Assembly (NCBI RefSeq): GCF_041260155.1
Contig: NC_091931.1
Location: forward strand, 10,273,861-10,337,860
Length of the DNA stretch: 64,000 nucleotides
From: Ptychodera flava
Lineage: Eukaryota; Hemichordata; Enteropneusta; Ptychoderidae
Direction: 5' to 3'
The number at the start of each line of letters is the position of its first letter. The stretch's first letter is position 1. Positions 13,065 to 49,233 of this stretch are shown piece after piece. Under the pieces are notes generated by a model. That model was not told where the DNA came from and did no database searches. It worked only from the letters and a program-made list of their open reading frames with translations. The position numbers were made by a program, and so were the translations under genes.

Positions 13065-13169
13065 TTACTCTTTGTTTGGCCCTTGGGCAACCGCTACCTG
13101 CATGCGCTTGCAGAATGACACCGATACCACATTGTATAAAGACAATAAAAGACCGTTTTTAGAACTTAC

Positions 13170-13670
13170 CATATCCGATTCTGCGGCCTGAAATACATGG
13201 CAACTAAAATCAGAGTCAGCGTTAATTCTGTAGAGGTACGCAAAACACGTCTTGACTCTCTGGCATCGTGATATTCTTGAAATTCCCTGAAGTCTGTGTT
13301 CAAAAAGTATTGACCCAGTCTCTTCGTCGATGCACAGTAGCGACTTCGCGGACAGCTGTATGATTATTCGTCGAGTTTGGAGCCTCCGTCGAACTTCTGC
13401 TAGAATCCACGGAAGCATTGACTGTGTGAAGCGACGATCCAGCGACTCGACACCGTAATACATCAGGTTGAACGTCATCTTTTCGCCGGCTTCGAAGTTC
13501 TCAGCCACCGTTGCATCGGATCGCGCGGAAAGTGTTGACGAGATAGCGTCAATTTCATTTTCACTCATGTGTACATCGACGTCCCCCGACTTGTTTTTTG
13601 TATTTATCTGTTCAGTCATGTCTTTACTCGCAGTGGCGGTAGCACTGGGTAGGTTCGTTTCAAGGCTCAT
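13170..13670 (-). CDS. First coding exon of a TBC1D1/TBC1D4 (AS160)-type Rab GTPase-activating protein
   Basis: The exon encodes 167 residues, starting at the AUG at 13670 (MSLETNLP, preceded by GCAAAG, with a purine at -3). It ends in phase 0 at ATG|GTAAGT, with the donor at 13169-13168. The open frame runs on to 13065, but that part is intron. Residues 1-62 are Ser/Thr-rich and probably disordered. From about residue 65 there is the start of a PTB/PID domain: FNLMYYGVESLDRR, then SMLPWILAEVRRR, ILFEHRLQGISR, and CFAYLY...CHVFQA. These match in order and spacing the first PTB domain of human TBC1D4 (LPMLPWLMAEIRRR, FEHKAQHISR, FAYLI...ACHVFRA) and TBC1D1 as I know them. In vertebrates the family acts as an Akt/AMPK-regulated GAP for Rab8/10/14 in GLUT4 vesicle traffic. 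The second PTB and the TBC domain are not in this window, so intron 1 probably exceeds 13 kb. An in-frame upstream GTG at 13742 is not a credible start. Confidence 0.88.
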
Positions 13671-13900
13671 CTTTGCATAACATAGTTCCAACGGGAAATA
13701 TCGCAAACCGCTGTGATCTGCAAACTTTGAATGAATGACCACCTCCAGATATCGATCACTCCAGACGACTGGCCGCCATAGCGTTGCTCGATGATGTCAT
13801 AGTCTCCCCAACTTCCCTGGAAATGGACTGCCGCCCGGCCGCGGCGCGTACTTTGAATGCGTCAGATTGTTACTGATGGTGTTTGTCCGTCAGCGAAATT
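13671..13900 (-). promoter_or_regulatory. Probable promoter/5' UTR of the TBC1D1/4-like gene
   Basis: The DNA just upstream of the AUG is locally GC- and CpG-rich compared with its AT-rich surroundings (for example GCCCGGCCGCGGCGCG near 13833-13848). It also contains a TGATGTCA CRE-like word near 13792. No TATA box is evident. The extent is a guess from base composition. Confidence 0.45.
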
Positions 13901-15120
13901 GTTACTATATACCATGGGATGACGCTTCGGAAAGTTCTCGAAACTTGCTTCAATCAAATCTTTGAAGTCATATTATACGAAAAATGGGATCCCTCCTATG
14001 GGTGGGCTAGGGAGTCTTTATCGACCCGCTTGTTTTCGTGAATACGTGACCTTGATGTGACCGAGCACCAGAGATACCAGTCCGCTGATAGGCCTACGTA
14101 CCGATCTTGACGCACGCATTTCTTGTTTCTTGAATTGCTCTCTTAAAGAATGATCTTTTTTTTGCAGTATTTCTGGTAATTTGGTGACACAAGCAATATC
14201 TAAAAGTCTTGAGGAGAAGGTATTCCCCAAATAAAATAACTTATAGGGCCTACAGTAGCTTTTTACTTTTGTAATTTTTTCATTGTGTTTTGTTCAGTTT
14301 TTCAACAGCAGGGCCTTGTGCCGGCCCTACTTCCACTACTTGTCAAACAGACCTGTGTGTGACCCACAGGATAAGCAATGACCATTTTCTGGGGGACAAC
14401 AATTTAATTTCACATCCACAATGCACCGGTGCAATAGGGAATTAAAAAAATGGGATTTCGACATGCCTCAGGGAAGAGCAAAAATAAAGTTTAGCTAATA
14501 CAAAAAAGGAAAACGTCAAAATAGGCCTACAAACAAATATAAAAATATAATGTTTCGTACATGGATGTCTGTCAATATTGTAATTAAAATTCAAAATTAA
14601 AAAAAAAAGACAGACAGTAAAACTGATAAGGATAACTGAATCACAGAGAAAGAGAAGAAAAAAGCATCTATGAGAAAAACCATGGAGATCACTGTTGTTT
14701 ATTTTTTCAATTCAAATCTTTGGAAGCTAAGAAGTAAAAAGAGTTTGTTAAATATTTTGATATTCAATAATATACTGTCAAAACACATGAATTTTAAAAA
14801 ATGCAAATCGTATAAAACCAACATTCAAAAGATGCAACAGTTTTGATCCGGAAAATTAACATCCCATGAAATATGTAAGCTTACTACAGAGGCCTGTGAA
14901 TAATCAGAATAGATCACCATTGACTCTGACGAAACGAACCCAATTAGTCATATCAATGGCGTAACAAATCATGTCCTAATAAGAGTGAAAGAGGAGTTTC
15001 TGAAAGCATGCATAGTGAGGGTAACTCGATTTCCAGGGACTGGCATGTCAAAGTTACCGTCCCGGGCAGATTAATTTGCGAAGTGGCGCAGAATTGCTGG
15101 TCATAATATAGGCCTACGCG
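13901..15120. other. Intergenic stretch, nothing recognised
   Basis: AT-rich with A/T runs (for example near 14598-14608). No exon, RNA gene or clear element is seen. Confidence 0.4.
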
Positions 15121-17394: not shown

Positions 17395-17545
17395 TAAAAT
17401 TTCGCAAATTGACATGCCGGCTTAGTTGGGTGGATACTTCGTCTTTGCACCTTCAAACTGTTAATTTGAAACAATGTGAGTTCGCGCTCACACTCAGTTC
17501 CCCCGACGCGGTCCGGCATTTTTGCTCTGCCGTCATTATACTATG
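17395..17545 (+). repeat. ~150-bp direct repeat, copy 1
   Basis: It shares TAGTTGGGTGGATACTTCGT, a TTCGCGCTCACACTCAGTT region, and CCCCCGACGCGGTCCGGCAT with 19025-19160 in the same orientation. Its identity as a transposon fragment is unproven. Confidence 0.6.
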
Positions 17546-20949: not shown

Positions 20950-21305
20950 AAGGTAGTTCGCGCCTAGAAAGTGAAAGACTTAAACTTTTGTTCAAACTTT
21001 TCTTGAGGAATCTTTCAACCATTCTCTTTCAAAATCAAGAACAAAAATTAGGGGTCATCCTGCAAATTTTGGTACTAGGAAACAAATAACTCCATATTTA
21101 CCGACATTCAAAATTCAAAATGGCCGCCTTTCCTGTGTTAATCCTATGGAGAAAAATAAAATTTTCAAATTTTCGAATTTCGAAAAACTAAGCCGGTTAA
21201 AAATTTCTTTCACCAAGAGCTTTAAAATGAACCCCCGCAAGTAGATCAGAAAAGAATTGTAAAAGTTTGAGAGTCCGAATATCTGTCCCCGAGGCGCATT
21301 GTACC
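20950..21305 (+). repeat. Dispersed repeat family R1, single arm
   Basis: This is the clearest R1 arm. It runs from about AAGGTAGTTCGCGCC through TTCAACCATTCTCTTTC, TTTTGGTACTAGG, CAAAATGGCCGCC and GAGCTTTAAAATGAACCCCC to GAGGCGCATTGTACC. Its right edge meets the 640-bp inverted-repeat element at 21311. Confidence 0.75.
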
Positions 21306-21310
21306 TTAAA

Positions 21311-21950
21311 GCACAGGCGGCCCAGACACTATTAATAAGCTTATTATTGAGTTTTTCTCACTTTTTTCTCTATCAGTTCCTCTCCTTTTCTTCATCACAG
21401 TCCCTCTATGGATAGAGGGACTGCGTCTATATGCTCTGACTGATCAGAGTGAATAAAATAAATGGTTTATATAACCTAACCAAGCCTCTTTTGACTCTTT
21501 ATTCATTTTACACCCATTACAAGGACGCTTATCTCTCATATACACATCTTGTAATTAATTAGTTAACATAACTAATTATATTAATCCGTTGACTTAATCA
21601 AGGGTTGATCAACATTGGAAAGATAGAGATGTAAATGAAAAAGGAGTTTCAGTAACCTTTCCTATCTTTCGCGATGTTGACTAACCTATAAATCCCTGAT
21701 AAGTCCACAAATTAGTATAATTAGTTGTGTTGACTAAATAATTACAAGATGTGTGTATATGAGAGATAAACGTCCTTGTAATGGGGTGTAAAATAAATAA
21801 AGAGTCGAGAGGCTAGGTTAGGCTATAAAGTCATTTATTTTTATTTACTACGATCAGTCAGAGCATGAAGAAAAGGAGAGGAAACTGATAGAGAAAACAG
21901 TGAGAAAAACTTAATAATAAGCTTATTAATAGTGTCTGGGCCGCATGTGC
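21311..21950. mobile_element. 640-bp long-TIR non-autonomous DNA element (MITE)
   Basis: The ends are GCACAGGCGGCCCAGACAC and the inverse of GTGTCTGGGCCGCATGTGC. The inverted similarity continues inward for more than 200 bp on each side (for example TATTAATAAGCTTATTATT, the Ser/Phe-neutral TCTCCTTTTCTTCAT tract, and CCATTACAAGGACG versus CGTCCTTGTAATGG). Both flanks carry TTAAA (21306-21310 and 21951-21955), a clean 5-bp target duplication. It has no coding capacity. A TTAA-centred target fits piggyBac- or Kolobok-like insertion, but the TIR sequence does not let me assign a superfamily. Confidence 0.85.
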
Positions 21951-21955
21951 TTAAA

Positions 21956-22417
21956 GATGATATGATATCCGAAAATGTTTTGCTACTAAATTATATACGC
22001 CTATGGCTTGTAATCGAATATCCCAAGTACATAGTTGTGTTGCATTTAATAAAGTCGTGACCCAAGCACGACCACTAGTACTATTTCACTATCCAAACAC
22101 ATCTCAGTTTATCTGTCAAAGTTTGGACTGATCACCACACATAGGCCTAAGGGCTTTCGAGCTTCAAGTATCGGAGTTTATGTATTTACTTGTTTTAGTT
22201 TTTATCTTTTATTCATTCATACATTCTATAATGATTTAATCACTGTTTTGTTCGTATATGTATTTCTATTTATTTATTTTGTTTTGTTTTGCTTATTCTA
22301 TTAACGATCATTCTGAAGTTTTTTGAAATCCATTTTATCTACCTGAGTAAGCCGACTCGAACACACTAGGAATTGTAGGTAATGCGTGATAAGAACTCTG
22401 CCATGGAAATTGCTAGA
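21956..22417. other. Upstream flank of gene A, nothing else recognised
   Basis: AT-rich intergenic sequence with T-runs and a TTTATTTATTTTG tract near 22267. No exon is seen. Confidence 0.35.
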
Positions 22418-22579: not shown

Positions 22580-23826
22580 ATGGGTAACCAAATATCATCT
22601 CAAAGGCGTGGAAGTGCTCCGAAAACGGTCGACAATAGGTGAGTTTACGTGATTCCTATCCATATTACAGCGGTATGACGATAGTTGGCTTGAAAACTTA
22701 CATTCTCTTTAAATGTTTACGAATTCGGTTCTTATATATCTATGCAAGCCCTAAATGTATTGCAATTTAAAATTAAAGTCAACAAACAACAGACGAACGC
22801 AATTTCAATCAAGTGATTCGGCATCATGTTTTTGTTTCTATTTGTGTACGCGTTAGTCTAACATCTTCTAGAAAATTTGTCACATTGTGAGCTTTTCAAC
22901 TTCTCCTGGATCAAGTGGTTTTGATTTATGTATATGTAGGCCAAGTCTTAGTAAAAATTATCAGATCGTGGGCGTCAAACATTCCTGGGTCAAGCGAAAA
23001 AGAAAAGCTAATTTACTAGACACGACAACAAAGACATGAACAGCAGACGGGTTAGAGTCTTCCAAATATTAGAGCAGTTACCGTGTGCGGCCACTCCTTG
23101 TCTGTGCTAGAGCTGCTGAACATAGTCACAAGTATTCAGTGCTCTGTCATCGTATCAATGTAAATTCTATTTAGGATGTTTATTTTATCATTCTACACAG
23201 TGGAAAGAAAGAAAGGACAGTAGAGTCTAGGAACAGGAAGAAATGGTGGATCTTTAGGAAAAATAAAGTTCAACCAGAAATTCACGGTAACATGTACGGC
23301 AACCGTTGACAACATCGGAGAAATCCAAGAAGAAGCAGTAACTGCGATGAAGGAAAGGCTTTTCACAAGTGATCGTCAAACAGAAGAGAAAGAAATGAAG
23401 GGAAGCGAGAGTGGAGAAGTCCGTCATGAACTTGAGAAAGTTGAAACTGAGACACAGAAGCTAGTGACTGACAACCCCGAACTCATTGACGGGCGAGATG
23501 AGAGAAGGAAACTCAGCTGTAAGGATGGTGATTCTACGGACAAAGCATTGAAGAACATCCGTCTCCGGAAACGCGGTGACGAAAGAAGAGAACGTCGAGC
23601 CGCTAGAAGGTCCAGACCAGAAAAACAGGAAACAGGTATAGAGGGAGCACAGGTCGACAAGGTAGACGATGATGTCATCGATCGCACAATGGCGGCAAGG
23701 AGAGAGAAAATTGCTGAAAGTAGAAAACGCATGGAAGAGAAAAGAAGAGCAAGAGCTGCCAACCGACATGAACTTACTTACGAAGAGAGTTTTGCTAAAC
23801 TCAGAGCCTTGGCAAAGATGCAGTAA
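22580..23826 (+). CDS. Gene A: myristoylation-signal coiled-coil protein, two exons, frame disrupted in exon 2
   Basis: Exon 1 (22580-22638) encodes MGNQISSQRRGSAPKTVDN and ends in phase 2 at AATAG|GTGAGT. Exon 2 starts at 23201 after TTCTACACAG. MGNQISS fits the N-myristoyltransferase consensus (Gly2, Asn3, Ser6). Exon 2 first reads a basic-aromatic patch, NRKKWWIFRKNK, followed by EIHG, and then meets a stop at 23307. A second frame, offset by one base, continues as VDNIGEIQEEAVTAMKERL...SDRQ and runs to the stop at 23824-23826. These two segments match consecutive parts of gene B (KKKRLFFRKR...EIQ, then LDAVWDIRDALVSEMKK...YDRQ). Gene A has 19 nt where B and C have 15 between them. So a net +1 shift lies within about 23286-23304. 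The later frame (23347-23826 in full) is long, highly charged (E/K/R) and ends YEESFAKLRALAKMQ like gene B. A 34-52-nt mini-intron would restore the frame, but it would remove homologous sequence, so a recent frameshift or sequence error is more likely. The function is unknown. Confidence 0.7.
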
Positions 23827-24412
23827 GAGAGGACAATAAGGAGTACTTTATCCTTATCTCAAAGAAACCTGCGATCTGGTCTTCGTCACTTTCTCCACTA
23901 CCACTTCTTGCCATGGATTGTCTCTATGGAATCTGTGCTTGTAGCAGGTGCATCGCTTTTGTGTATAAGCCAAAGTGAAAAAAAATGTGTATTTCCGGTA
24001 ACATACCTCCCAAAATTAGACTACGTTGGTCGGAGGAATTTTTCTATGTTTGTCTTTGGCTAAGACACGTGAACTACATTAAAATTTACAGAACTTGCTC
24101 GAACTTTGTTGAAAATGCGAAAACAATTAGTGGGGTCGGAGGGTTTTTGTTGGGTAGGTCGGATTACCGGACACATAGGCAATCTCTTTCTTTTATTTGG
24201 CATTAGATAAAAGATCAAAGATGCATGAAAAAAAATTATCAACAGATAAGATAGTGCAGGTTCAGTATTAAAAATGAAAATGGAGAAAAGGCATAGAAAT
24301 ACGAGAAAAATGTAGTATTTTTTCAAGATAAAATTAGAACATATTGTATTGTATAATTGTTTAAAAACTAAATTTCTTTCAGAGAAACATTAATAATTTT
24401 AGTGGCACATAT

Positions 24413-24418
24413 AATAAA
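24413..24418 (+). terminator. Candidate polyadenylation signal of gene A
   Basis: AATAAA about 590 bp after the gene A stop. It is the first exact match I noticed downstream. No cleavage-site evidence is available. Confidence 0.35.
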
Positions 24419-24724
24419 ATCCTTATTGACAACGCAACTATAATATGTGTGTTTATATGTCGAATATTAATTACAGTGAATCGCATTAACACATTTTCCG
24501 ATGAGGAGTGAAAATTTAACACATCTCATGCATATTGAAATTAGATTAGTGTTTTGCAGTGTAATATTCTGTATGAATTCATGGGGAAAATTTGACACAA
24601 AAAATGCTGGTATAAATGTCCGATTGGGATACAGTACACGGACCTTTTGGTAAAATAGAATGCGCCTTGGGGATAGATAGACATTGGGAGGTTCACACTT
24701 TGACACTATATTTCGTCTACCTCT
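24419..24724. other. Intergenic stretch, nothing recognised
   Basis: AT-rich. No gene is supported. Confidence 0.3.
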
Positions 24725-24985
24725 TGAGGGGGGTGCTCATTGTGAAGCCTATGGAGTAAATAATATCTCACCGGCTTACTTTTGTGAAAATCGAAAACTT
24801 AATTCCCACATAGGATGGCGGCCATTTTGAATTTCAAGTGTCAGTAAATATTTGGTATTTTCTTCCTGTAGTACAAAACTTTGCACGATAACCCCTGATT
24901 TTTATTCTGGATTTCTAAAGGGTATAGTTGAAAGTTATGGCAACAAAACAAAATTTTCAGTCTGTCAATTAATTAAGCTCCACTG
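24725..24985 (-). repeat. Dispersed repeat family R1, single arm, reversed
   Basis: Read on the minus strand it gives the R1 words in order: TTTCAACTATACCCTTTAGA, the ATCAGGGGT(T)ATCGTGCAAAG region, TTCAAAATGGCCGCCATCC and GTAAGCCGGTGAG. It is truncated relative to the copy at 20950. Confidence 0.7.
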
Positions 24986-25846
24986 CCGGACTAGAATGGG
25001 ACGACATCAAATGTCAATCGTCCATTTTCAGTGTGAATTCTGTACAGCTGCTAAAAATAGATATAACACAGTTGTTTTCTTCACAACAAAAATGTCTACA
25101 TTAATATGTGATTCCATCTCTATAACAACAACACGCAGATAGCAGTTTTAAATGTGTTATAGTGCTAAAGTTTACTATCTTAGGCGAGTCAAACTGCAGA
25201 CGAGACTTCATCCTATGACGTGTTCAGCCCACATTGTGTAAACTCATCGCGCCATGTATCTCTTGCTTGAAATGACATTTACTGTTCCCAAAACAATAAA
25301 CACTACATTTCCTGAACTTTTCCTTTGTAGAGGAAAGGACGTTTACTAGTGGTCATCATTTTCGCACAGATAATAAAAAACTTTGCGATATAAGAGAGGA
25401 GCGAATTAGGACTTCTTAACTAAACATTAAATTGATATCAAATAACTTAATTTATTTCGGCATTGATAATTAGAATAACCATGACTATATGCAACAAGTG
25501 TCGCTGTTTTAGAATAATTTATCATGGCCGTCGACGTCATAAATGTCACCAGAAAAAAAAGAACGAACATTTGACTGAGAATTTTGACTCCCACATTTTT
25601 TCAGAGCAAATGTATTGACATTACCTACCTGGCTGGTCGTGTCTAGTTGTGAATTTTTTTTACGAAATTGTATTATTTATGAGTGACTCATACTCCCTCC
25701 CTGCATGGGACTGTATAGGCTTACCTTTAATCGGTTCCCTTCGGTTTCCCATCGATGATTATTGATCATTGTTATTTCTTGTCATAATAGCAATCATGAT
25801 AAACTGATATAACTTTCGCAAACTAAAGACACCTGCATTGCTGTTG

Positions 25847-25850
<4 letters not shown>
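24986..25850. other. Intergenic stretch, nothing recognised
   Basis: No exon or clear element is seen. Confidence 0.3.

Positions 25851-25927
<77 letters not shown>
25851..25927. repeat. (CT)n microsatellite
   Basis: 77 bp of uninterrupted CT dinucleotides. Confidence 0.98.
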
Positions 25928-25930
<3 letters not shown>

Positions 25931-26259
25931 TCAATCAACTGCTGATCTTATGATGGCATTTCCAGCAGTTATCTACAGAGGCAGGAGATATGTGCGCAGT
26001 AGTGGTCCGTTCGCTCTCAATTAAATCTTTATTTTCCTGTTCCTCTTTTCATAAACTTCTGTCCCTTCCGAACATTTCAACAATTTTTGTGAAGGTTAAG
26101 CACTTAAGCCATACATTCTCAATTATATTGTACGAAAGCATACTCGTCGGAAATCAGTAATATCATAGCTTTACACATTGTTCGCGTGTCGAACTCAAGA
26201 GGGCGATCACTCAACAACCGACGCTAAGAGCGTCCACATTAAAGTGGTGCGCAGTCTGG

Positions 26260-26267
26260 TGACGTCA
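26260..26267 (+). promoter_or_regulatory. CRE (TGACGTCA) upstream of gene B
   Basis: An exact palindromic CRE 148 bp before the gene B AUG, in the context GGTGACGTCATAC. The duplicate gene C keeps it (GGTGACGTCACAC). CREB/ATF-family factors bind this sequence. Use in this organism is inferred. Confidence 0.5.
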
Positions 26268-26407
26268 TACAGTTATTCTTTCTGGAAATAGAACACGCAA
26301 TATCAAAGCTACTCACTTGTTCGAACAACTTGCGGAGCGTCAATATTGCAGAAAATCTTCGAAAACTGAGCGATTAATCTGGTTTTTTCAATAGTAAACA
26401 CACAAAA

Positions 26408-28058
26408 ATGGGTAACAGAGTTTCCAGAGACTGGAATGTCTTTGAGGAAATTGTCTTGCAAAGGTGAGTTAGAGTGTTTTGGGCAATACAAAACGTGACT
26501 GTTGAGAAGCTGTAGTCTAACTGCCTGAGTAGCAATATGCACAGCTGAAACGTTGATTTATATGTGACAACAGAACGACACAAAGTGGTATTTGCTGGTT
26601 CATACAGTTTTAATGTTTTCCTTATGCAGTATTCCATGCTTTAGATATGATCAACAGCTTTGTTGCAAACCCCTGTTATGCATGCAAAGCTAGCTTGCAT
26701 ACGGTTATTGTTATCTAGCGTTTACATCTCTCCGACCCGTACTCCAAAACCGAATTCACGATCAGGATGAAACGGTACAAGTTTCAAGGGCCAGGAATGG
26801 TAACTTTTGATGATTGTTATATTACTTTTATTTTGAATATCAATAACAACTTCTTACTCTACTCCCTAAAGAATGTTGAAACACACAATATTTAGCTTGT
26901 CAACGTAGCGTTTATATGTGTAAAATGCATTGTTATTGTTTACATTTGAATTCTATAGCTTGTCCGGACCAGAAGTCACTTTTCAACAATAACAATGCAG
27001 TTTACACACGTAAGACTTAGTTTACTGGCTGAGTTGACAAGCTGGATACTGAATATATCGACATGCTTTAGAAAGTTGAACACGGAGTTATGGACAATCA
27101 AAACAAAAATGGTGAAAAAATTATCAAACGTTAGCACTACTAAGCTTAGTCCTTTGATCAGCCTAAAACTTAAATTTGGTCGTTAAATATATAATATAGA
27201 TTATTACATTATGACGTGTAATCATTCGTTATAGGTGAACTTCCTCGTTGCCTTGCCCTTCAAGGGTTACTCTTTAAAGCTATCGCATGAGATAAAATGA
27301 CCTCCATGTGAAGAACAAATGTGCAATGCATATCCCTGCATACTATTTTAACCGGCACTGTAAAATTTACTCATGGTTATCGCAGCGTGTACCAAATCAA
27401 AAGTTACTTGGTCGGTAGAAGGGTAACAATAGTATTACTGTCCGGGTCATCGACTGAGGTCACTTGTTTGATCACATATTTTTTTATAAATTTGTCTTGT
27501 TTGTATAGAGACGAAGAAGAGAAGTATGCGACATTGCTACAGCAGTGGGAAGCCCTGCAAGGTCATCTAACTGCAATGGAGGAGGAGATAGAGAAAAAGA
27601 GCAAGAAGAAGAGGTTGTTTTTTCGAAAGAGAGCGAAGAAAGAAATACAACGCAAGAAGGAATTCCTTGACGCCGTCTGGGACATCAGAGACGCACTGGT
27701 CAGCGAGATGAAGAAAAACCGCTTGGTGGCGTATGACAGACAGCAAAACCTGCAGAAGAAGGAGAATATAGAACGCGAAATAAAGATCATAGCAGATCTA
27801 CAAGAAAGCCAGAAGAAGAAATTTGAGAAAATTGAAAAGAGAGAAGCGGCTGAGAAATGCAAAGAATGGGTTAAGGAAAGAAAAGCTTGCCAAGACGAGA
27901 ATGAGGTCATCGAACGTGAGATGGCCGAACGAAGGGAGAAGATCACGGAGATTAGGATGCGAAGTGCAAAGAAAAGGGAAGAGAGAGCTGCCCTCCAAAA
28001 GGATAGATCATATGGAGATAGCTTTGCCAAGCTCAAAGCCTTGGCCAAAATTGAGTAA
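26408..28058 (+). CDS. Gene B: intact myristoylation-signal, polybasic coiled-coil protein (201 aa)
   Basis: Exon 1 (26408-26463) encodes MGNRVSRDWNVFEEIVLQ and ends in phase 2 at CAAAG|GTGAGT. Exon 2 (27509-28058) follows TTTGTATAG and completes the codon AGA. The predicted protein has 201 residues. Gly2-Asn3...Ser6 is a strong N-myristoylation signal. Residues 48-63 (KKSKKKRLFFRKRAKK) form a basic patch with two aromatic residues and one Ser in a PKC-like basic context. From about residue 20 to 185 the chain is almost all E/K/R/Q/A/L and should form a long helix or coiled coil. The C-terminus is SYGDSFAKLKALAKIE, also seen in gene A. The architecture of acyl anchor plus basic-aromatic patch resembles MARCKS-type membrane binding, but there is no sequence homology that I can claim. 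It is the middle gene of a three-gene plus-strand family. I do not recognise the family. Confidence 0.82.
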
Positions 28059-28534
28059 GAGGCAAAGTTTACATGCCGTCACTGTCGTCCATGCACAGTC
28101 GGCCCGACTTGACCATCATTAGAACTTGAATGCGATTCAAGATAAAGAAGTGGACCTAGTTAGGTCACATTGTTCGTGGGAACGTTTTGTATTAAGGTTG
28201 CTGTGCGTTGAAGACGCTGAACGTAGTTCAAGAGTCTCTTCATCGTTATGATGAACTCATAACAAATGGGACAAATTATGACAACATTCAGCGGCTGTAT
28301 TGATATCCGAAGGATTTGAAACCAGTCTAACTTTAATCCGACCCCCTGAAAAAAAAAATAACGCAGTGAATGCTGATAACTAGAATTTAAAATGCTAGAA
28401 ATTTTCCATTGTATTGATTATAGTCATAGACACACTTTTGATTTATAAATAGTTCAAATTTTGATGTATTTGTTGATCACAAACATTTTTAAGTAAAAAT
28501 TATATTCTGCACTTCTTGTTCTCTCTTTAACGTT

Positions 28535-28540
28535 AATAAA
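28535..28540 (+). terminator. Polyadenylation signal of gene B
   Basis: AATAAA 477 bp after the stop. The same hexamer and its surroundings (AATAAA.GATAACACAAAATG) are conserved at the duplicate gene C. Confidence 0.65.
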
Positions 28541-29503
28541 GGATAACACAAAATGAATATCGGCTTGTGTTACACTCTTTGGAAAACTTCTTTGTGTAGA
28601 TCAGACTTGAAATTGCCTTGCCATGATTAATAGGGCCATAATCATATTCATGATCAAAAAATATTAGGTATAACGTCTGAAATCTCAGGTTTTCTCTCTC
28701 ACGAAATGACGTGCCCGCTCCGTTCGAAGGGGCGCCATCAACGATAAGCAGGTCTTTCACCACAATACAAGGTTTTCCTTGACATTAAATCCTCTGTTAA
28801 CTTTTTCCCCACTGTGGTCGGCCAAAACCCAATGTTATCAACGGTGATTGTGAAACTGTTTACAGGGAAAGGGATGACTTGGTTAAGTAAATGTACAGTC
28901 CTCTCCCGTTTAGTGGAAATTGTTAAAATTGTCAGCAGTGTTGAGTCATAAGCTTAGCCGTGATGCATGGAGGCCAAATTGAATAGTTGAATATCAGGAA
29001 GCTATTCCGGGTTACAAATGTTGATATTGGTATCCGCATTGTCAGTTTGGCTTGATTACACGATTCCAACTTTTTGGTTTTGAGGCGTTGAGGCGTTTAC
29101 TACCCCTTCTCTGAAAAAACACCATCGGAGTGCATGTATATCTTATCCCAGATTTTACTATCGATTATCAGTGCGTCATGGTAATGAAACTTCTTGCTGA
29201 AAAAAGTGAAAATATCAAAAATGACAACGCATTTTCTTTTCGTGTATAGAAATTTTTATACAATGTGGGTTCCATTATATGAAGATAATGTACGTTTATT
29301 TCTATATGTACAAGGTCCGGGCTGATCGATCCGCTCATAGTTCACAAATTACGTGCATTTGCTTTCATACACGTGAATAAAAGCGCTATCGTTTTCAAGT
29401 TATATCACCTTGCTTACATGAATATGGAGTTGAATTTAAACATCAAAGGCTGTATTTGACTCGATTGCAATATTGACACGTGCATAGGCTTATTAGATCA
29501 CCT

Positions 29504-29815
29504 AAAGGAGCCTTCAGTAGTTACAGGGGGATGGGCCGGGGGATTTGGGGGCGGGTCACTTTAGAAAACTTGTCCAAGAGGAAGGGTCACTTTTTATAGA
29601 CCTATGTTTGGGGGTCACTTTTAACAGAAGAAGATCTTACGGCCAAACCTTTGACTGCCCATTTGATATTTCTTGAATAGGAAATGCCAACGAAATACAT
29701 CGATTCTTTTAAATATATACACATTATCGACGAGCTTCTTGCCACCTTATACTTGCGCAAAATATGATGACCCTCCCGAAAACGCATGTACCACAATGAC
29801 ATTTTTTTCTCTTGG
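29504..29815 (+). mobile_element. Internally deleted fragment of the GGGAGCC-ended TIR element
   Basis: It begins AAAGGAGCCTTCAGTAGTTA and continues like the inverse of the right end of the complete copy at 47532-49233. It carries the GGGTCACTTT phrases and TTGAATAGGAAATGCCAACG. It then jumps to sequence like that near 47840-47890 (GCGCAAAATATGATGACCCT). The tandem-repeat core is absent, and the far end is cut off by the hairpin at 29822. It marks the right edge of duplication unit 1. Confidence 0.7.
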
Positions 29816-29821
29816 ATAATT

Positions 29822-29984
29822 ATATATAATCCCATGGTATTTTTCTCTGTTTGACGTCATCGTATACGAGTGTTTTTCGCGGAGCCGTACAACTTCGAGC
29901 CGAAGGCGAGAAGTTGTGCGGCTCCGAGAAAAACACGAGTATACGATGACGTCAAACAGAGAAAAATTCCATGGGATTATATAT
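29822..29984. mobile_element. 163-bp hairpin (foldback) element
   Basis: Near-perfect arms of about 75 nt run from ATATAATCCCATGG at the left to CCATGGGATTATAT at the right. They pass through TGACGTCATCGTATAC and its inverse, with a tip around CTTCGAGCCGAAG. Each arm carries an exact CRE. It is non-coding. Confidence 0.85.
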
Positions 29985-30869
29985 TTATCACATGAACAGT
30001 CTTCTTATTTTTCTTTGATGTGGATGGATCAAAATTATTGTAACAAATTGCATGATTTTTATCGCGATTTTATGTTTTATTTACGCGGATTACTTATATT
30101 TAATGAGTAAAGCGGTCCGTCACCCAGGAGATGTGCAAATGTTTACAGGTATTCTTCCATTCATAAATCCCATTAAGCTAAAACTTTGATACATGGAATG
30201 GTATCTCCACCAATCAGACATACGGATTCGGTCACGTGCGCGTGTCAATCATTGTCTTGCGCTGGAGCGATGCCAAGGCAAGTCTGCCATCGGCGGACAT
30301 AGCTTTCACCGCGATGGCGACGGATAACGATAGTATTTTGAGTTATTTAGAATATTTAGAATTATATTTATAAAGCGAATGCAACGGCACGATCGAAACA
30401 GTAGTTATCATTCTTACAGATGCTGTGGCTTTTAAAATATCACAAGTTTACGGCCTTGGCGAGCCTGAAAGTTTCAGATCGATGACACACTCAGTGTACG
30501 CTTGTAGTTGTAGTACAGTGGGCACTGCCGTCACCGGTCTCCGCCGCGCCGGTGGCCATCTCAGTCGTCAATGTTTTCGTCATACGGACTTTGATGTTTG
30601 CTGTGACACATATATCGCCCGTAGGTATACTTCCCAATTTTGTCACTAGACGGGAACTCTGTTCTGTTGTGAGTGTTGTCCGAGTCCACTTTCGAAATGC
30701 ATCGGATTCTACAGCGCTGCACTGCAGAGTTTACGCTACAGTTTGACAGCTTAGGCTTGATTCCGATCGAGAAACAACGGAATAGTATTTGTGTGATGAA
30801 GGAAATTTATCGTTGATCGTCGATATTTGTGCCTTCTATGTCGCTTTCCCGAAGTTTATACAGTATTCA
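29985..30869. other. Intergenic stretch, locally CpG-rich
   Basis: CpG-rich from about 30220. It holds a 19-codon open frame in a fair Kozak context at 30314-30373 (MATDNDSILSYLEYLELYL) with no support beyond its sequence. No larger exon is seen. Confidence 0.3.
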
Positions 30870-30875
30870 TTTATT
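30870..30875 (-). terminator. Candidate polyadenylation signal for the minus-strand exon at 31076-31321
   Basis: TTTATT on the plus strand, which reads AATAAA on the minus strand, about 200 bp past that exon's stop. Its value depends on whether the exon is real. Confidence 0.35.
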
Positions 30876-31075
30876 AAGTTGAACTTTCGTTGAGGTGTAT
30901 CTTTCGGGTTTATCGCCAATCGGGATCGCCAGGTACGACGTCGCTTGGCGATCGCCAGGTACGACGATATCCACATTGAGCCTTGCGACTGGAGCCGTCA
31001 TGACGTTACCCCGGGGACGTTACTGAGCCAAACGATCGACGGTATCCTCATTCGATTCTTGGGAATAGTAAAGCT

Positions 31076-31321
31076 CTAGCGACTCGAAATTTCGTTGGGC
31101 ATGCCTTCTATCAACTTTTTGTCAAAATGCCATGAGAGCACGGCATCGATCACGACAAATCGGTCTGTGTCGCGACGTGCATGTACGAACGGTACCATTG
31201 CAGGAAAAAAGTTCCGGTTGATGACGTACAACAGGGGTAATATGGATTTCTTATCTGTGCTGGTGTACGTCACACAGGTGGAGATACGGGCCAGTTCATG
31301 TGATAACTCCAGTTTACTACT
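31076..31321 (-). CDS. Possible terminal exon of an unidentified minus-strand gene
   Basis: After a plausible acceptor (TTTATATTCCAGGCTCTTAG, ending at 31322) an 81-codon frame runs to a TAG at 31078-31076. It reads SSKLELSHELARISTCVTYT, later KKSILPLLYVINRNFFPAM, then RFVVIDAVLSWHFDKKLIEG. Codon choice is coding-like (ATC TCC ACC, TAC GTC ATC AAC CGG AAC). The mix of hydrophobic and charged residues fits a folded alpha/beta domain. A polyA signal follows at about 200 bp. I do not recognise the protein and cannot find its upstream exons between 31.3 and 32.3 kb with confidence. The opposite strand is also partly open (about 31098-31325), so the strand is not certain. It could instead be a remnant of a transposon gene or a pseudogene. 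Confidence 0.35.
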   Translation of the reverse strand, partial: SSKLELSHELARISTCVTYTSTDKKSILPLLYVINRNFFPAMVPFVHARRDTDRFVVIDAVLSWHFDKKLIEGMPNEISSR

Positions 31322-32284
31322 CTAAGAGCCTGGAATATAAATCAGCCTAACAAAAATTACACCTTTACAACTACTTCTTGTAAATCAATACCTTAAACAT
31401 TGTGCAAGGATTTCTACTTCAATTTACACTGTGACACCCAGTTTCACTTTCAAGCATCTTCATCAGCCAAAATCTTGTGATTTTCAAAAGATGGAATTTA
31501 ATCTCTTTTGCATCAATAGCATAAATGGAGGATTCAATTATATTACATGAGTAGGTTTTTTATCAGTTTTATCTATGAATAAATTAACTAAACACAAATT
31601 TCACATTGAGAACAAAGGATTAAAATCACACAGTCAATGTCAACATGCACTACCGGTAATGTGATAACCATGGATTGGGGACTGCCCCTTGAAATTCAAT
31701 TCTAACCATATTATAATTTATTTCTGAGACTGAGGTTCATCTGTATATCATTGGATTCACTGCACGCACTAGACTTGTACATGTCTGTCTTGTAATATTG
31801 CCTTCCATAAATATCGCATTTTTTTGGGGTGCACAAATTTGTTTCTCAAAGCTTTGACATGCTGAAGAAGATGTACCGTCCTGTTCATTGAGGATATGAC
31901 TTGGTCGGTTACAGCAACGTTTACATTCTGGCTCTTTCACAGTTTCAGTTTAAACTCTAGGATACAAAACTTGCACTACAGGTTCTGTAATGTTTCTAGT
32001 CTTGAAATATGATGTCACCAGAGCATGTCACAGCTTCTAAAGCACGATGTCAGAGCATGACGTCACAGATACGAGAGCACGATGCTACAGCAACTAGATA
32101 ATGTCGTTTATGGCTGCTAGACTTGATAATCACAGCAATACACAGAATATGTCATGGCTTTCAGAGCATGATGATGTTATTATTTCTCAGACTACACTGC
32201 ATTTGTAATGTTACATCGGAGTGGATTGCGATAACACAATCTGTGTTCTTTATTAAGGAAAGTGATATATAAACTTACGCCGTA
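31322..32284. other. Intergenic stretch with short AGAGCATGACGTCACAG-like repeats
   Basis: Around 32010-32100 a short motif recurs imperfectly (GAGCATGTCACAG, GAGCATGACGTCACAG, GAGCACGATGCTACAG). A minus-strand Cys-containing frame at 31737-31940 has no acceptor or family match that I can support. Confidence 0.35.
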
Positions 32285-32405
32285 GTAGTCAATTCACTCT
32301 CAATGAAACCTACATTTTCCCGTTCCTCTTTTCAAAAACTACTTTCGCTTCTCAACCTTTCAAGAATTTTTAAAATGTTAACCACATGATTGGTGCAAAG
32401 TATGG

Positions 32406-32413
32406 TGACGTCA
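32406..32413 (+). promoter_or_regulatory. CRE (TGACGTCA) upstream of gene C
   Basis: An exact CRE 151 bp before the gene C AUG, preserved from the duplication that gave genes B and C even though the surrounding promoter has drifted. Confidence 0.5.
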
Positions 32414-32556
32414 CACGGCTATTCTTTCTGCAAATAGAACACAACAATATCACAGCTAGTAAGGTTGTTCGAACCATTTGCGAAGCGTCAATATTGCAGA
32501 AAATCTTCGAAAATTGAGCGATTAATCTCGTCATTTCTATAAAAAAACACACAAAA

Positions 32557-33872
32557 ATGGGTAACAGAGTTTCTAGAGACCGGAATGTCTTTGAGGAAAT
32601 TGTCTTGCAAAGGTGAGTTAGAGTGTTTTGGGCTATACAAACATGACTGCTCAGAAGATGTACTCTAACTGCAGTAGCAATATGCACAGCTGAAATATTG
32701 ATTTATACATGACAACAGAACGACACAAAGTGGCATTTGCTGGTTCATAAAGTTGTAATGTTTTCCCTATGCAGTATTTCATGCTTTAGATATGATCAAC
32801 AGTTTTGTTGCAAACCCCTGTTATGCATGCATAGCTAGTTTGCATACGGTCATTGTTATCTAGTGTTAACATCTCTACGACACGTACTCCAGAACCGACT
32901 TCATGATCAGAAGTAAACAATATTATTTTGATAAACCTAAAATAAATTTGGTAATTTGTTTTTAGGTATCTTTATAACTCTGTAGATGATGACAATGTGA
33001 CTTGTAGATATTCGTTAAGGCTGATTTTCATCGTGTTCATGACCTTCAAGGGTTACACTTCCAGTCTAACACACACCAGATAAAAGGGTATCCAATGGAA
33101 TTACGTAAATACAATGCACATACCTGCGTATGTTTTTAATCGGCGTTGTAAAATTTACACGTGATTATCGTAGCGCACAGCAAATGAATGGTGCTTTGGG
33201 AGGTAGAAGTGTAACAATAGTATTACTGTTCGGGTCATCGACTGAGGTCACTTTTTTCAATCATGTCAATTTTTTTTATAAATTTGTCTTTATAGAGACG
33301 AAGAAGAGAAGTACGCGACATTTCTACAGCAGTGGGAAGCCCTGCAAGTTCATCTGAATTCAATGGAGGAGAGGATAGAGAAAAAGAGCAAGAAAAAGAG
33401 GTGCTTTTTCAGAAAGAGAGCAATTAAAGAGATCCAACGCCAGAAGGAAATTCTTGACGGTGTCTGGGACATCAGAGATGAAGTGGTCAGCCAGATGAAG
33501 GAAAACCGCTTGGTGGCGTATCGCAGACAGCGAAACCAGGAGAAAAGGGAGCAAATAGAACGTGAAAGAAAGATGTTAGAAGATGCAAAAGCAAGTCTGC
33601 AGATGAAAGTCGAGAAAATTGAAAAGAGAGAAGCGGTTGAGAAATGCAAGGAACGGGTCAAGCAAAGAAAAGCTTGCCAGGACGAGGATGAGGTCATCGA
33701 ACGTGAGATGGCCGCTCGGAGGGAGAAGATCATATGGAGATTAGGATGCGAACTGCAAAGAAAAGGGAAGAGAGGGTTGCCCTCCAAAAGGATAGATCAT
33801 ATGGAGATAGCTTTGCTTGGCTCAGAGCCATTGCCAAAATCGAGTGAGAGGCCAAGTTCAGTTGTCAAGTAG
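32557..33872 (+). CDS. Gene C: myristoylation-signal polybasic coiled-coil protein with a frameshifted C-terminus
   Basis: Exon 1 (32557-32612) encodes MGNRVSRDRNVFEEIVLQ and ends CAAAG|GTGAGT. Exon 2 starts at 33296 after TTTATAG. The open frame ends at 33870-33872, giving about 210 residues. It keeps the myristoylation signal, the basic-aromatic patch (KKSKKKRCFFRKRA), VWDIRDEVVSQMKENRLVAY and the charged helix. Near 33731-33735 gene C has ATATG where gene B has ACG, a 2-nt insertion. The last ~47 residues are therefore read in another frame and do not resemble A or B. The ancestral frame is still visible beyond the shift as SFAWLRAIAKIE with a stop at 33845-33847. The gene may be degenerating, may tolerate a new tail, or may reflect a sequence error. 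The function is unknown. Confidence 0.72.
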
Positions 33873-34335
33873 TCAGTGTCGTCGATGCAAAGTGGTCACA
33901 ACTTAACCGCCACTAGACTTTGAATGCGATTCACGTTGATAAATGGAACCTGTTTAAGTGTTCGTAGAAACGTTTTATCTCAATGTTGTTGTGCGGTCGA
34001 AAGGCTGAATGTAGTTCAAGCTTCTCTTCATCGTTATGAAGAACACTTAACTAAGGGAACAAATTATGAAAACAGTCAGCGGCTGTATTGACATGGAAGG
34101 ATTCGAAACCAGTCTCACTTCAATTCGACAGCATTATTGGACAAAGACCAATAAAATATAACGCAGTGAATGCTGATAAATAATAGTAAAAAATTAATAA
34201 ATTTTCTATCGGCATTTTAGTCATGGACACGGCTTTTGATTCATAAGCCGTTCAAATGTCAATTTATTTGTTGGTAACGAACACTTTAATTAAGTTGAAA
34301 TTATACTCTGCATTTCTCATTTTCTCTTTAACTTC

Positions 34336-34341
34336 AATAAA
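34336..34341 (+). terminator. Polyadenylation signal of gene C
   Basis: AATAAA conserved in position with the gene B signal, about 465 bp after the stop. Confidence 0.6.
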
Positions 34342-35375
34342 CGATAACACAAAATGAATATTAACTCGTGTAATTACAATCTTTGTTAAGTTTCTTGGTG
34401 TAGATTAGGGTTGAAATTGCCTTGCCAGAATTTTATTAATGGCCAAGAAAAACAATACGTAGAACGTCTAAAATATCAGGTTTTCCTTCTCACGGAATGA
34501 CATGCTCCCTTCGACGGAGCGCCCTCAATGGTCCAATCCAATCAGGTCTTGATTTTCAAACACTTTCTCCACGATGCAAGCGTCTATTAACTTTTTCCCA
34601 ACTGTGGTCGGCCATAACTCACTGTTATTAACGGTGATTGTGAAACTATTTACAGGGAACGGGATGACCTTGCTAAAGAAAGGTACGGCCATTTCTCCCG
34701 ATTTGTGTAAATCATCAGATTTTTCAGTCGTGTTGAGTTTACTACACCTGTGATGCATGGGGGCCGAATTGTATGGTTTAATACCAGGAGCTTATTCGGT
34801 GTTGCAAATGTTTATATTTTGGTGGCCGCATTTTTAATTTGGTTTGATCACATGACGCAAACTTGTTTGTTTTGTTTTGTGAGGCGTTTACTACTCGCCT
34901 GTGCAGAACACCAACGAAGCAAATACCGGTATATCTCACACTTTATCGATTCTTGTCATTCTTACATCAATGCGTCACGGTGATGAAATTTTTGGTGAAA
35001 GAGTGAGGATATAAAAAAATGATCATTTCCTCTCTTTCATGTATAGAAATTAGATATATCATAACATGTACATAATGTACGTTTGTTTCGATAAAATATA
35101 CAAACTGGTTTGCAATGCTCGTCTCAGACTGACGATCTTTACGTAGAAAAGGTCAGGGCTGATCGCTCTCTTCGTAGTACACAAATTACGTGCATTTGCT
35201 CTTATACATATATACATATATACGTGAATATAAGCACTATCGTTTTCAAATTGTATCACCTGGCTTATATGAGAATGGACTTGAATTTAAACATCAAAGG
35301 CTATATGTGGCTCAATTTTCACATTGCATAGGCCCGTGCATAGGCCTGTAGTTCACCTAATGCACTCCGGATATT

Positions 35376-43989: not shown

Positions 43990-44153
43990 TGTGAGGCAGC
44001 ATTTTACAAGTGGCATAGCCACAAACTGATGACGTCAAATCGCCTCACACAAAACACAGACGCCTTGTAATTATGGCACTGTGTATTGTGTACAGCGATT
44101 TGACGTCATCAGTTTATGGCTTTACCACTTGTAAAATGTTGCCGTTTGTGATG
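43990..44153. mobile_element. 164-bp hairpin (foldback) element
   Basis: Imperfect arms of about 75 nt pair through CATTTTACAAGTGG and ACTGATGACGTCAAATCGC and their inverses. Each arm contains an exact CRE (TGACGTCA), as in the hairpin at 29822. It abuts the left end of the recognisable reverse-transcriptase fossil. Confidence 0.8.
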
Positions 44154-44295: not shown

Positions 44296-46028
44296 GGGAG
44301 CGTTCAGTTATTATGGCCGGGGGTAGGCCGGCAAAATCCAGGGGGGGTCACCTCAAATTTGAAAACTGCAAAGGGGGGGGGTCATGTATTTTTCAAGCAG
44401 CTCAGAGGGGGGTTACTTAATTTTCATAAGTATCCGTCCAGTTTCAGTGTTCATAAATATTCTTGGAGATAAAAATGATTCGTTGCATGATTTCATTCTC
44501 TGCAGTTATTCACCTGTAAATCTGAACAAAAGTATAATTATCTGTCACATGAACATCTTGACTTGACAACTCTGAACTGAGGGCAATGAACAATTCCTAT
44601 TACTTACATATTAGAGATATAGCAAGTTTTGTCAGGGAAATTATTTAACAGTTACCTATACTGAGACTACTAGTACCATGAAAAGTTAAATAATACTTTT
44701 AGGTGAAATTCCAATATCATAATTGTTGTCCACATCTGAACTTTTAAATACCCTATTTGAATCAAGTACATTTGTATCAATTATCAAACACCTATAAAAG
44801 CACAAATTAATTTAGTTTAGCATTGTAAAAAAAATATTCTTAGTTTTTTCATAGACTCCAATGTATAGTGAATCAACATTTCGGTGAAATTACAAAATCA
44901 AATTTTTTGCACACGAATCAACCTTTAACCATCCTAGGCTAACTAAGCACTTTAAAATGAATTATCAAATGTCTCTAAATACACAGATTTTGATATTTTT
45001 GTATTGGAAAAAAATTATTCATATTTTCCTCACAGACTCCCATGTACAGTGAATCTACATTTTGGTATAATTCCAAAATCCAATTTCTGGCAAACACATC
45101 CATTTGTTACCACCCTAATCTAATCTAATACATTGATATCAATAATCGAGAGTGCATAAATACATGGGTTTACCTATTTTTGTATTGGAAAAAAAATATT
45201 CATACTTTCCTCATAGACTTCCCTATATAGTGGACAACATCAGTGAAATTCCATAATCAGATTTCTTGTACACATAATATGCACGTTTAACCATCATATT
45301 CTAATCAAGTACAATTATGTTAATTATTGAACGTCTGTATATGCACAAGTATACCAAGTTTTTCATTGGAAAAAAAAATTATTCACAATTTTATCATTGA
45401 CTCCCATGTATAGTGGATGAACATTTTTGGTGAAATTCTAAGGTCAAACTTGTTGTCCACATGCCAGTTGTAACAACCCTATTTCATTTAAGTACGTTTA
45501 TGTAAATTATCAAATATCTATAAATGCATAGATATAGTTTTGCATCGAAAAAGTATCACATAGATTTCTCATACATGTATGAGAAAATATATGTATACCA
45601 TGTATAGTGAATCAACATTATCAACAGCTGATTTTTAATTAAATCCAAATATCAAAATTTTGTACACACGCTTGCGCAAAAATATTGCGTTCCACCATTA
45701 ATTTCTGTCCAACCCCTTTGAGGGGTAATTTCAAAATTATAAGCAAGTCAGAAGGGGAAATCTGAGCATCAACACCTTTTGAGTTTGTAAGGAAGGTCAT
45801 TTGAAAAAATCTAAGCTCTTTTTTGGGGATTCTATCGCTCCATACCCCCGAGGCGTTTGTGTGTGCAGCTTTACTCAAGCAATGTGGGGAGGGGGGTGTC
45901 ATGAAATTTTTGTCATCTTGAAAGGGGGGTCATCAATTTTTTGGTACAATGGGTAGGGGGGTTCACTTATTTTGACTGATGCGCAGGAAGAATTTGCCGG
46001 CCCACCTCCATAATAACTAAACGCTCCC
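44296..46028. mobile_element. 1.73-kb TIR element with internal tandem repeats, inserted in the RT fossil
   Basis: The left end GGGAGCGTTCAGTTATTATG is inverted at the right end (CATAATAACTAAACGCTCCC). TTA flanks both sides (44293-44295 and 46029-46031), a 3-bp (or TA-centred) target duplication. The subterminal regions are rich in GGGGGG/GGTCA phrases. The core is about five copies of a ~180-bp repeat. There is no transposase frame, so it is non-autonomous. Confidence 0.85.
44830..45620. repeat. Tandem repeat, ~180-bp period, about 5 copies
   Basis: The marker ATGTATAGTG (with variants) recurs near 44861, 45052, 45227, 45406 and 45599. It is followed each time by AATCAACATT-like and GAAATTCC/CAAAATC-like words. 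Copies are diverged. It is the core of the TIR element at 44296-46028. Confidence 0.8.
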
Positions 46029-47531: not shown

Positions 47532-49233
47532 AGGGAGCCTTCAGTAGTTACAGGGGGTGGGCCGGGGGAATTTCGCGCACACCTGTACCGTAAAATGTGA
47601 CCCTCCCCCTATCCTCCTGTCTAAAATGTGACCCTCCCCCTTGTCCGACATTCTAAAACTTGACCTCCCCCACCCCCCAACCACTGTGGTATTTTCCCAA
47701 GGAATAACTAAAACAGTATCAGCTAATTTACATAACAATTGGTTCAATTGTTATGTTAGGGACAAATTACAGAGGGGAGGGCTGGTGTTTTTGGAGGGAC
47801 AGTCGCAATTTATCACGCAAGAATTTTTGAAGAGATATGGTATTTCATACATTTGAGGGAGGGTCACCATATTTGTGCAACTATAAGAAGGCAAGATGTG
47901 GCTGATTTAGTGCTTCATCCGAAAATATCAAATCATAATACATGGAGTCTATCAGGCAAATTATTGACAATTTACCCCCACAAAACATGCTATATCTGTA
48001 TATCATATATGTTTGATAATGTACTTAAATGTACTTTGCTTGAATTGGGAAGTAAAATGTGCATTTGTGTACAAGAAATTGATTTCTGAATTTCATCTAA
48101 AAAGTTGGTTCACTATCCATTGTGTCTATGATGAAACTATGAATAGTTTTGTCCAAAACAAAAATAGGTAAATCTTTGCATTTGTGTACTCTTGTTTATT
48201 GATATTAATGTTCTTGATTAGACTAGAGTGGTTACAAGTCTATGGTTGTGCAAGAAATTTGATTTTGAAATTTCAACGAAATGTCGATTCACTATGCATG
48301 GCGGTCAATGAATAATTTTTTTTTCAGTACAAAATAACATAAATCTGTGCATTTATGTATGCTTGATTATTTACATTATTGTTCTTGATTAGACTAGAGT
48401 GGTTACAAGTCCATAGTTGTGCAAGAAATTTGATTTTGGAATTTCATCGAAATGTTGATTCACTATGCATGGCGGTCTATGATGAAACTATGAAAATTTT
48501 TTTCCAATACAAAACTAGGTAAATCTGTGCATGCATGTGTGCTTGATTATTTATATTAATGTTTTTCATTAAACTAGAGAGGTTATAAGTCCATGGTTGT
48601 GCAAGAAATGTGATTTTGGAATTTCACCGAAATGTTGATTCAAAATGCATGGCGATCTATGATGAAATTATGAATTTATTTTCCAATACAAAACTAGGTA
48701 AATCTGTGCATGCGTGTGCGCTTGATTATTTATATTAATATTGTTGATTTAACTGGAGTGGTTATAAGTCCATGGTTGTGCAAGAAATTTGATTTTGGAA
48801 TTTCACTCAAAAGTTGATTTACTGTACATGGTAGTCTATGAGAGAACTGTGCACAATTTTTTTCCAATATAAAACTGACAATATCTTTGCATTTATGTAC
48901 ATTTGATAATTGATATACACTTTTCCATCTGTTGCATATATTTTTGTCTCTTGTCTTTTATCAGTTTTAACTGTTCAAGGTGTTTAATGTAGGATACCAC
49001 TGCATCTTCTTTGCTTGTGAAACTTGTTGATAATGTGTACGTATTTTGTTGGTGATTTCCTATTCAGTAAATACCAGACGGACAATCAAAGTTTTGGCCA
49101 TAAAATCAGCTTCTGTCAAAAGTGACCCTCCCCCAAGATAGGTTTATAAAAAGTTACCCTCATTGAACTGTTTTCTAAAAAGTGACCCTCCCCATTCCCC
49201 CGGCCCACCCCCTGTAATTACTGAAGGCTCCCT
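47532..49233. mobile_element. 1.70-kb TIR element with internal tandem repeats, second subfamily
   Basis: The left end AGGGAGCCTTCAGTAGTTAC is inverted at the right end (GTAATTACTGAAGGCTCCCT), and the match continues through GGGGGTGGGCCGGGGGAAT. TA flanks both sides (47530-47531 and 49234-49235). Subterminal regions repeat GTGACCCTCCCCC. The core is a ~180-bp tandem array whose inverse resembles that of the element at 44296, so the two are sister subfamilies. It is non-coding and non-autonomous. Confidence 0.85.
48090..48910. repeat. Tandem repeat, ~175-180-bp period, about 4.6 copies
   Basis: The phrase GTTGTGCAAGAAAT recurs near 48245, 48415, 48595 and 48775. It is followed by GATTTTGGAATTTCA and a CTATGCATGGCGGTC-like word. 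It lies inside the element at 47532-49233. Confidence 0.82.

Follow-up and report, generated by a model that had tools for sequence, protein, structure and literature searches.

Gene organization at the locus

We have analysed a window of 64,000 nucleotides from the hemichordate Ptychodera flava (assembly GCF_041260155.1, contig NC_091931.1, positions 10,273,861 to 10,337,860 of the forward strand). Between positions 22580 and 33872, counted like all positions below from the first nucleotide of the window, lie three small plus-strand genes, A, B and C, starting at 22580, 26408 and 32557, respectively. Each opens with a first exon of 56-59 nt that codes for MGNx[IV]S. An initial annotation had described the three as members of an unrecognised protein family with a two-exon design, a phase-2 intron and a tiny myristoylation-type exon 1, and this layout holds at all three loci with respect to exon 1s, donors, acceptors and phase. 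Translation across the exon ends at 22638, 26463 and 32612 into second exons beginning at 23201, 27509 and 33296 gives phase 2 in every case, with predicted introns of 562, 1045 and 683 nt in A, B and C. The donors agree with MAG|GTRAGT at 8/9 positions in A and 9/9 in both B and C, and the acceptors carry 11, 10 and 10 pyrimidines among the 15 positions scored. All three N-termini fit an N-myristoylation pattern of the PROSITE type. When the window was scanned on both strands for an ATG with this pattern whose frame stays open up to an AGGTRAGT donor no more than 120 nt away, no exon-1 start was recovered besides those of A, B and C.

Gene B is the only copy in which the N-terminus, a basic-aromatic patch and a C-terminal motif lie together in one frame. 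By translation, exon-start scan and splice scoring, its exon 1 (26408..26463) reads MGNRVSRDWNVFEEIVLQ followed by AG and the donor AAG|GTGAGT. The intron (26464..27508) carries a palindromic element at 26798-27136 that has no counterpart in C, having been either gained in B or lost from C. Exon 2 (27509..28058) is charged and helix-type, with the patch KKSKKKRLFFRKRAKK at residues 48-63 and the C-terminal SFAKLKALAKIE before the stop. The coding sequence is intact over 201 amino acids, with MGNRVSR, KKSKKKRLFFRKR and the C-terminal motif in the same frame; it contains 53 Lys and Arg, 43 Asp and Glu, and 18 Ala. The open run of 182 codons in exon 2 was matched in 1/1000 shuffles. An AATAAA downstream of the gene (28535..28540) is in register with one downstream of C (34336).

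Gene C resembles B until close to its end. Translation and alignment to B give an exon 1 (32557..32612, also recovered by the exon-start scan) of MGNRVSRDRNVFEEIVLQ plus AG and an exon 2 (33296..33872) that retains the patch KKSKKKRCFFRKR and loses the frame of B past approximately residue 164. The open reading frame (ORF) stops at 33872 and comprises 210 amino acids including exon 1; its 191-codon run in exon 2 was matched in 1/1000 shuffles. The frame is lost through a 2-nt insertion at approximately 33732..33733, within a stretch (33727-33741) that is an exact 15-nt copy of 33794-33808, 67 nt downstream, and that is single-copy in B (28005). Because the altered stretch lies in an exact copy of a nearby one, the frameshift probably stems from a mutation templated locally, and a read error in a homopolymer seems the less likely cause. 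Out of frame, at 33737..33847, a relic of the C-terminal block is still legible as EIRMRT...SFAWLRAIAKIE, with 31/36 residues as in B.

The frames of gene A are divided in a different manner. Exon 1 (22580..22638) consists of MGNQISSQRRGSAPKTVDN plus AG with the donor TAG|GTGAGT, and exon 2 in the exon-1 frame (23201..23309) includes the patch NRKKWWIFRKNK and ends at a stop at 23309, giving 55 amino acids in total. Another frame (23224..23826) holds a 200-codon open run, equalled in 0/1000 shuffles, which contains the C-terminal motif SFAKLRALAKMQ and ends in TYEESFAKLRALAKMQ. Since patch and C-terminal motif are in different frames, the canonical splice yields only the 55-residue product. 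Fourteen alternative single-acceptor joins lead from exon 1 into the C-terminal frame; the nearest, with an exon start at 23226 (25 nt downstream), would give 219 amino acids without the patch and has 1/15 pyrimidines. A second intron could retain the frame through 95 GT-AG pairs in A (best donor 6/9) and 94 in C (best donor 7/9), and with so many pairs that fit, none is distinctive. On present sequence, the C-terminal frame of A could be reached from exon 1 only by a frameshift, by a weak second intron, or by a poor acceptor whose use would leave out the patch. Where the two frames of A overlap, the patch frame resembles B better (26/1000 shuffles as good) than does the other (146/1000).

The proposal of three intact members with all features in common must therefore be narrowed, as B alone is intact and A and C are frame-broken. 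Nor does SFAKLxALAKxx end all three proteins as described: the motif is out of frame after the 2-nt insertion in C and outside the exon-1 frame in A. The patch is present in the exon-1 frame of B and C, as had been stated; that of A is likewise in the exon-1 frame and is not in the frame of the A C-terminus.

Evolution of the gene cluster

B and C are clear tandem duplicates, approximately 6 kb apart from start to start and homologous, with gaps, over approximately 3.5 kb (25995-29505 versus 32278-35360). The flanks and the intron are common to both copies, so the pair arose by genomic duplication and not by retrocopying. These features also argue against a domesticated mobile-element protein, myristoylated, basic and matrix-like. 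Some retroviral matrix proteins do combine a myristoyl group with a basic patch, and the window is rich in repeats; the presence of an intron and the lack of a retroelement domain in B by Pfam search nevertheless make this origin exceedingly improbable.

The identity of the B/C intron is uneven. Its 5´ part (26464-26773 versus 32613-32918) is 90.5% identical and its 3´ part 75.6% (Fisher p 9e-7), which suggests gene conversion or a constraint, perhaps regulatory, near exon 1. A CRE-like (cAMP response element-like) TGACGT/ACGTCA site occurs approximately 146-160 nt upstream of each of the three ATGs, among 47 such sites in the window (0.73 per kb). The 400 bp preceding each of the three genes contain no NF-kB, IRF or AP-1 motif. 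A weak candidate for a fourth exon 1 lies at 15019..15049 on the plus strand; it has lost the ATG and matches B exon 1 at 25/31 nt (1/200 shuffles as good), and no convincing relationship was found for its upstream flank.

Coding constraint

Comparison of B with C supports purifying selection on the encoded protein. Over 201 codons, with the post-shift block of C read in the frame of B, the synonymous divergence dS was 0.246 and the nonsynonymous divergence dN 0.113, corresponding to a ratio omega of 0.46 (bootstrap 0.28-0.85). The part of exon 2 before the shift gave 0.44 by itself, and the two remaining alignment frames gave 1.20 and 0.83. The 18 codons of exon 1 contain one synonymous and one nonsynonymous difference. 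The C-terminal block that A shares with B is under clear protein-level constraint: over 47 codons, differences number 10, 13 and 27 at codon positions 1, 2 and 3, a third-position excess reached in 0/20000 permutations, and the proportion of differing synonymous sites (pS) is 0.785 versus 0.245 for nonsynonymous sites (pN).

In the post-shift block, eight codons differ between B and C. With A as outgroup, three nonsynonymous changes and one synonymous change are derived in C and one of each in B, with two codons ambiguous. Two of the changes derived in C fall within SFAKLxALAK. The numbers are small, and the tally fits a loss of frame in C. It would also suit an alternative in which the cluster is decaying, such that all copies, or all except B, are pseudogenes and the family functions elsewhere in the genome. 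The frame breaks in two of three copies and the possible exon-1 relic at 15019 point in the same direction. Against such decay stand the fully open frame of B, an omega below 1 and the open 200-codon frame of A, and we regard it as rather unlikely.

Conserved modules of the protein

Before the frameshift, B and C are identical at 127/164 residues. Windows with at least 15/16 identical residues start only at positions 1-21, at 46, which corresponds to the patch, and at 143. From these identities, the patch is a genuine conserved feature of the B/C pair. It is also unusual for the composition of B (4/2000 shuffles). In A, the patch stands out within its 54-residue frame (37/2000 shuffles) and matches B weakly, so that the idea of a basic-aromatic patch common to the family is well founded for the tandem pair and weaker for A. 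What A shares best with B is the N-terminus, where the likeness in exon 1 exceeds that expected from composition (2/1000 shuffles as good), and the C-terminal block, for which tblastn gave E values of 4e-8 and 5e-10, rather than the patch. A is a paralogue far more diverged than B and C are from each other.

The patch had been suggested to include a phosphorylation switch. Ser50 of B is common to B and C, and the patch of A contains no Ser, which weakens the idea. A different role for the patch may be envisaged, as a nuclear localisation or calmodulin-binding signal in a soluble charged-helix protein, in which the Gly motif would be incidental or partly used. The string KKSKKKR resembles a classical nuclear-import signal, and the abundance of Lys and Arg as well as Asp and Glu in B would be in keeping with such a protein. 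The longest run of the best conserved B/C windows is, however, N-terminal (starts 1-21), and even A, diverged as it is, begins with MGNx[IV]S. We consider this alternative unlikely.

A description as a coiled coil finds support only for approximately residues 19-46 of B, a window that stands out in comparison with shuffled sequences (4/300). Over the whole of exon 2 the 3.5-residue period is not raised (0.89), and peaks are found at 3.38 and 3.7. A single alpha-helix stabilized by salt bridges was rejected as a model. Opposite-charge pairs at i,i+3/4 are not enriched, with 889/1000 shuffles as high for B and 800/1000 for A.

Relation to known protein families

We found no named family for these proteins. 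Pfam-A, searched by hmmscan with E up to 1, gave only ExsD_C for B (0.19) and PAE for C (0.32), both below cut-off, and nothing for A; A and C were represented by their exon-2 frames. NCBIfam contained no match for B or the open frame of A. PHROGs gave none for B and a single weak match for the open frame of A (E = 0.039) that we do not credit. The best PDB matches (E 0.4 with the B sequence and 0.049 with a four-piece profile) were not accepted as homology. Searches with six short B peptides yielded nine pattern matches in viral contigs and 80 reported in prokaryote genomes, none of which was confirmed (by tblastn in the case of the viral contigs). Strings of family peptides had no match in the open-licence PubMed Central literature, where we found no account of such a family. 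The term “unrecognised” in the initial annotation is thus upheld and refers only to Pfam, NCBIfam, PDB, PHROGs, prokaryote genomes and viral contigs, none of which is a eukaryote proteome.

The closest parallel is with MARCKS and MARCKSL1, which have in common with these genes a signal for N-terminal myristoylation, a single intron close to the start of the protein, a Lys-rich patch with Phe and Ser, and a logic of myristoyl-plus-electrostatic attachment. The MARCKS effector domain contains about five Phe. The single intron of MARCKS genes lies in the MH2 region, and three or four Ser of the effector domain are target sites of protein kinase C (PMC8101130). The myristoylation-type start, the single intron near the N-terminus and the basic-aromatic patch in exon 2 would be compatible with a place in the MARCKS family itself, as a divergent member. 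In contrast, the B patch has one Ser and two Phe and the A patch no Ser; B, with its 18 Ala, is not alanine-rich; no MH2-like stretch was recognised by eye in the family sequences; and the family sequence is charged, with Y..SFAKLxALAK conserved at the C-terminus. The Pfam-A scan, run without a MARCKS positive control, returned no MARCKS profile for B or the exon-2 frames of A and C, and the best match for B is to another family. Membership in the MARCKS family is accordingly very improbable.

The c-Src protein carries SH3, SH2 and kinase domains. Cooperation of a myristoyl group with polybasic stretches is also seen at the N-termini of AKAP12 (Gravin/SSeCKS) and c-Src, and a myristoyl group with a polybasic region serves as membrane anchor in MARCKS and c-Src (PMC7752083). 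AKAPs are portrayed there as disordered scaffolds with three polybasic regions (PMC7752083).

A further resemblance concerns the sphingolipid desaturase DEGS1, whose N-terminus is of the MGxRVSR type and very similar in the first seven residues. Capture of an exon from a DEGS1-like gene was considered and set aside for lack of profile support. Residues 1-26 of B had no match in Pfam with E up to 10, a search in which weak short matches may be lost, and the whole of B matched no desaturase. The DEGS1-like start is taken as convergence on an acylation signal.

Genomic surroundings

Elsewhere in the window, a vault RNA (Rfam RF00006) is found at 17414-17523 on the plus strand as a full-length match with a T run at the end (37.7 bits versus a gathering threshold of 34). 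An exon with a PTB/PID domain lies at 13068-13796 on the minus strand (Pfam E 3e-8); it may resemble the N-terminal part of TBC1D1/TBC1D4 and has weak PDB matches to the PTB domains of ANKS1B and DAB2. Together with the introns, this exon and the vault RNA match point to an animal genome. Filtering left 266 ORFs with a minimum length of 58 amino acids; 130 of these (the 150 longest minus 20 in or near the cluster) were scanned against Pfam with E up to 0.01, giving six families among which PID alone was strong. Arrays of a satellite unit of approximately 180 bp occupy 44674-45573 and 47933-48916 in opposite orientations. Long palindromic (fold-back) elements, by appearance like miniature inverted-repeat transposable elements, are present at 21305-21956, 26798-27136, 29815-29989, 43995-44143 and 62015-62208.

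Discussion

We propose, at about even confidence, that A, B and C represent a small animal family consisting of a diverged member and a tandem pair, in which a myristoylation-type exon 1 is combined with a charged exon 2 to form a peripheral membrane protein of MARCKS-like logic. Our guess is that the family is probably limited to this lineage. Exon 1 would supply the N-myristoylation-type start and exon 2, most clearly in B, a charged and probably helical stretch with the patch. N-myristoyltransferase would then acylate Gly2 of B, and the myristate together with the Lys, Arg and Phe of residues 48-63 could provide a two-point hold on the acidic inner membrane, such that B may be attached to the cell membrane from the inside. 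Residues 19-46 may form a short coiled coil. The conserved basic C-terminal block ending in Y..SFAKLxALAK would be the effector, either by binding a partner or by contacting the membrane at another point. In this scheme C would have lost the block from frame by the 2-nt insertion, and A would require a frame change or unusual splicing to express it.

Several observations weigh against our proposal, in addition to the resemblance of KKSKKKR to an import signal. The codon-position bias between B and C is slight (22, 25 and 29 differences, with 202 sites per position). Their coding sequences, with 76/606 differences (87.5% identity), are no better conserved than the 150 bp upstream (128/147) or the 5´ intron (277/306); they are more conserved than the 3´ intron (232/307) and two stretches of 3´ flank (383/490 and 679/917). 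The weak match of the A patch, outside the frame of the A C-terminus, counts in the same direction, as does the absence of detectable B homology in the first 118 residues of the C-terminal-frame piece of A (376/1000 shuffles as good). Finally, the hydrophobic moment of the last 14 residues of B is modest (0.248), a measure that does not support an amphipathic membrane helix at the C-terminus.

A related possibility, which we entertain with limited confidence, is that of an unnamed metazoan family unrelated to MARCKS, in which the myristoyl group and basic-aromatic anchor arose by convergence, out of a separate exon 1 and the beginning of exon 2, and were joined to a new conserved C-terminal effector block, Y..SFAKLxALAK, with the C copy retaining the anchor and the patch and losing this block by its frame change.

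Should B be expressed and acylated, it would represent a myristoyl-electrostatic anchor that is separated by an intron and independent of the MARCKS family, and the B/C pair would offer a natural comparison between an anchor that carries the C-terminal block and one that lacks it. Otherwise we are dealing with an ordinary orphan family, from which we learn chiefly that the layout originally described holds in a single frame in only one of three copies.

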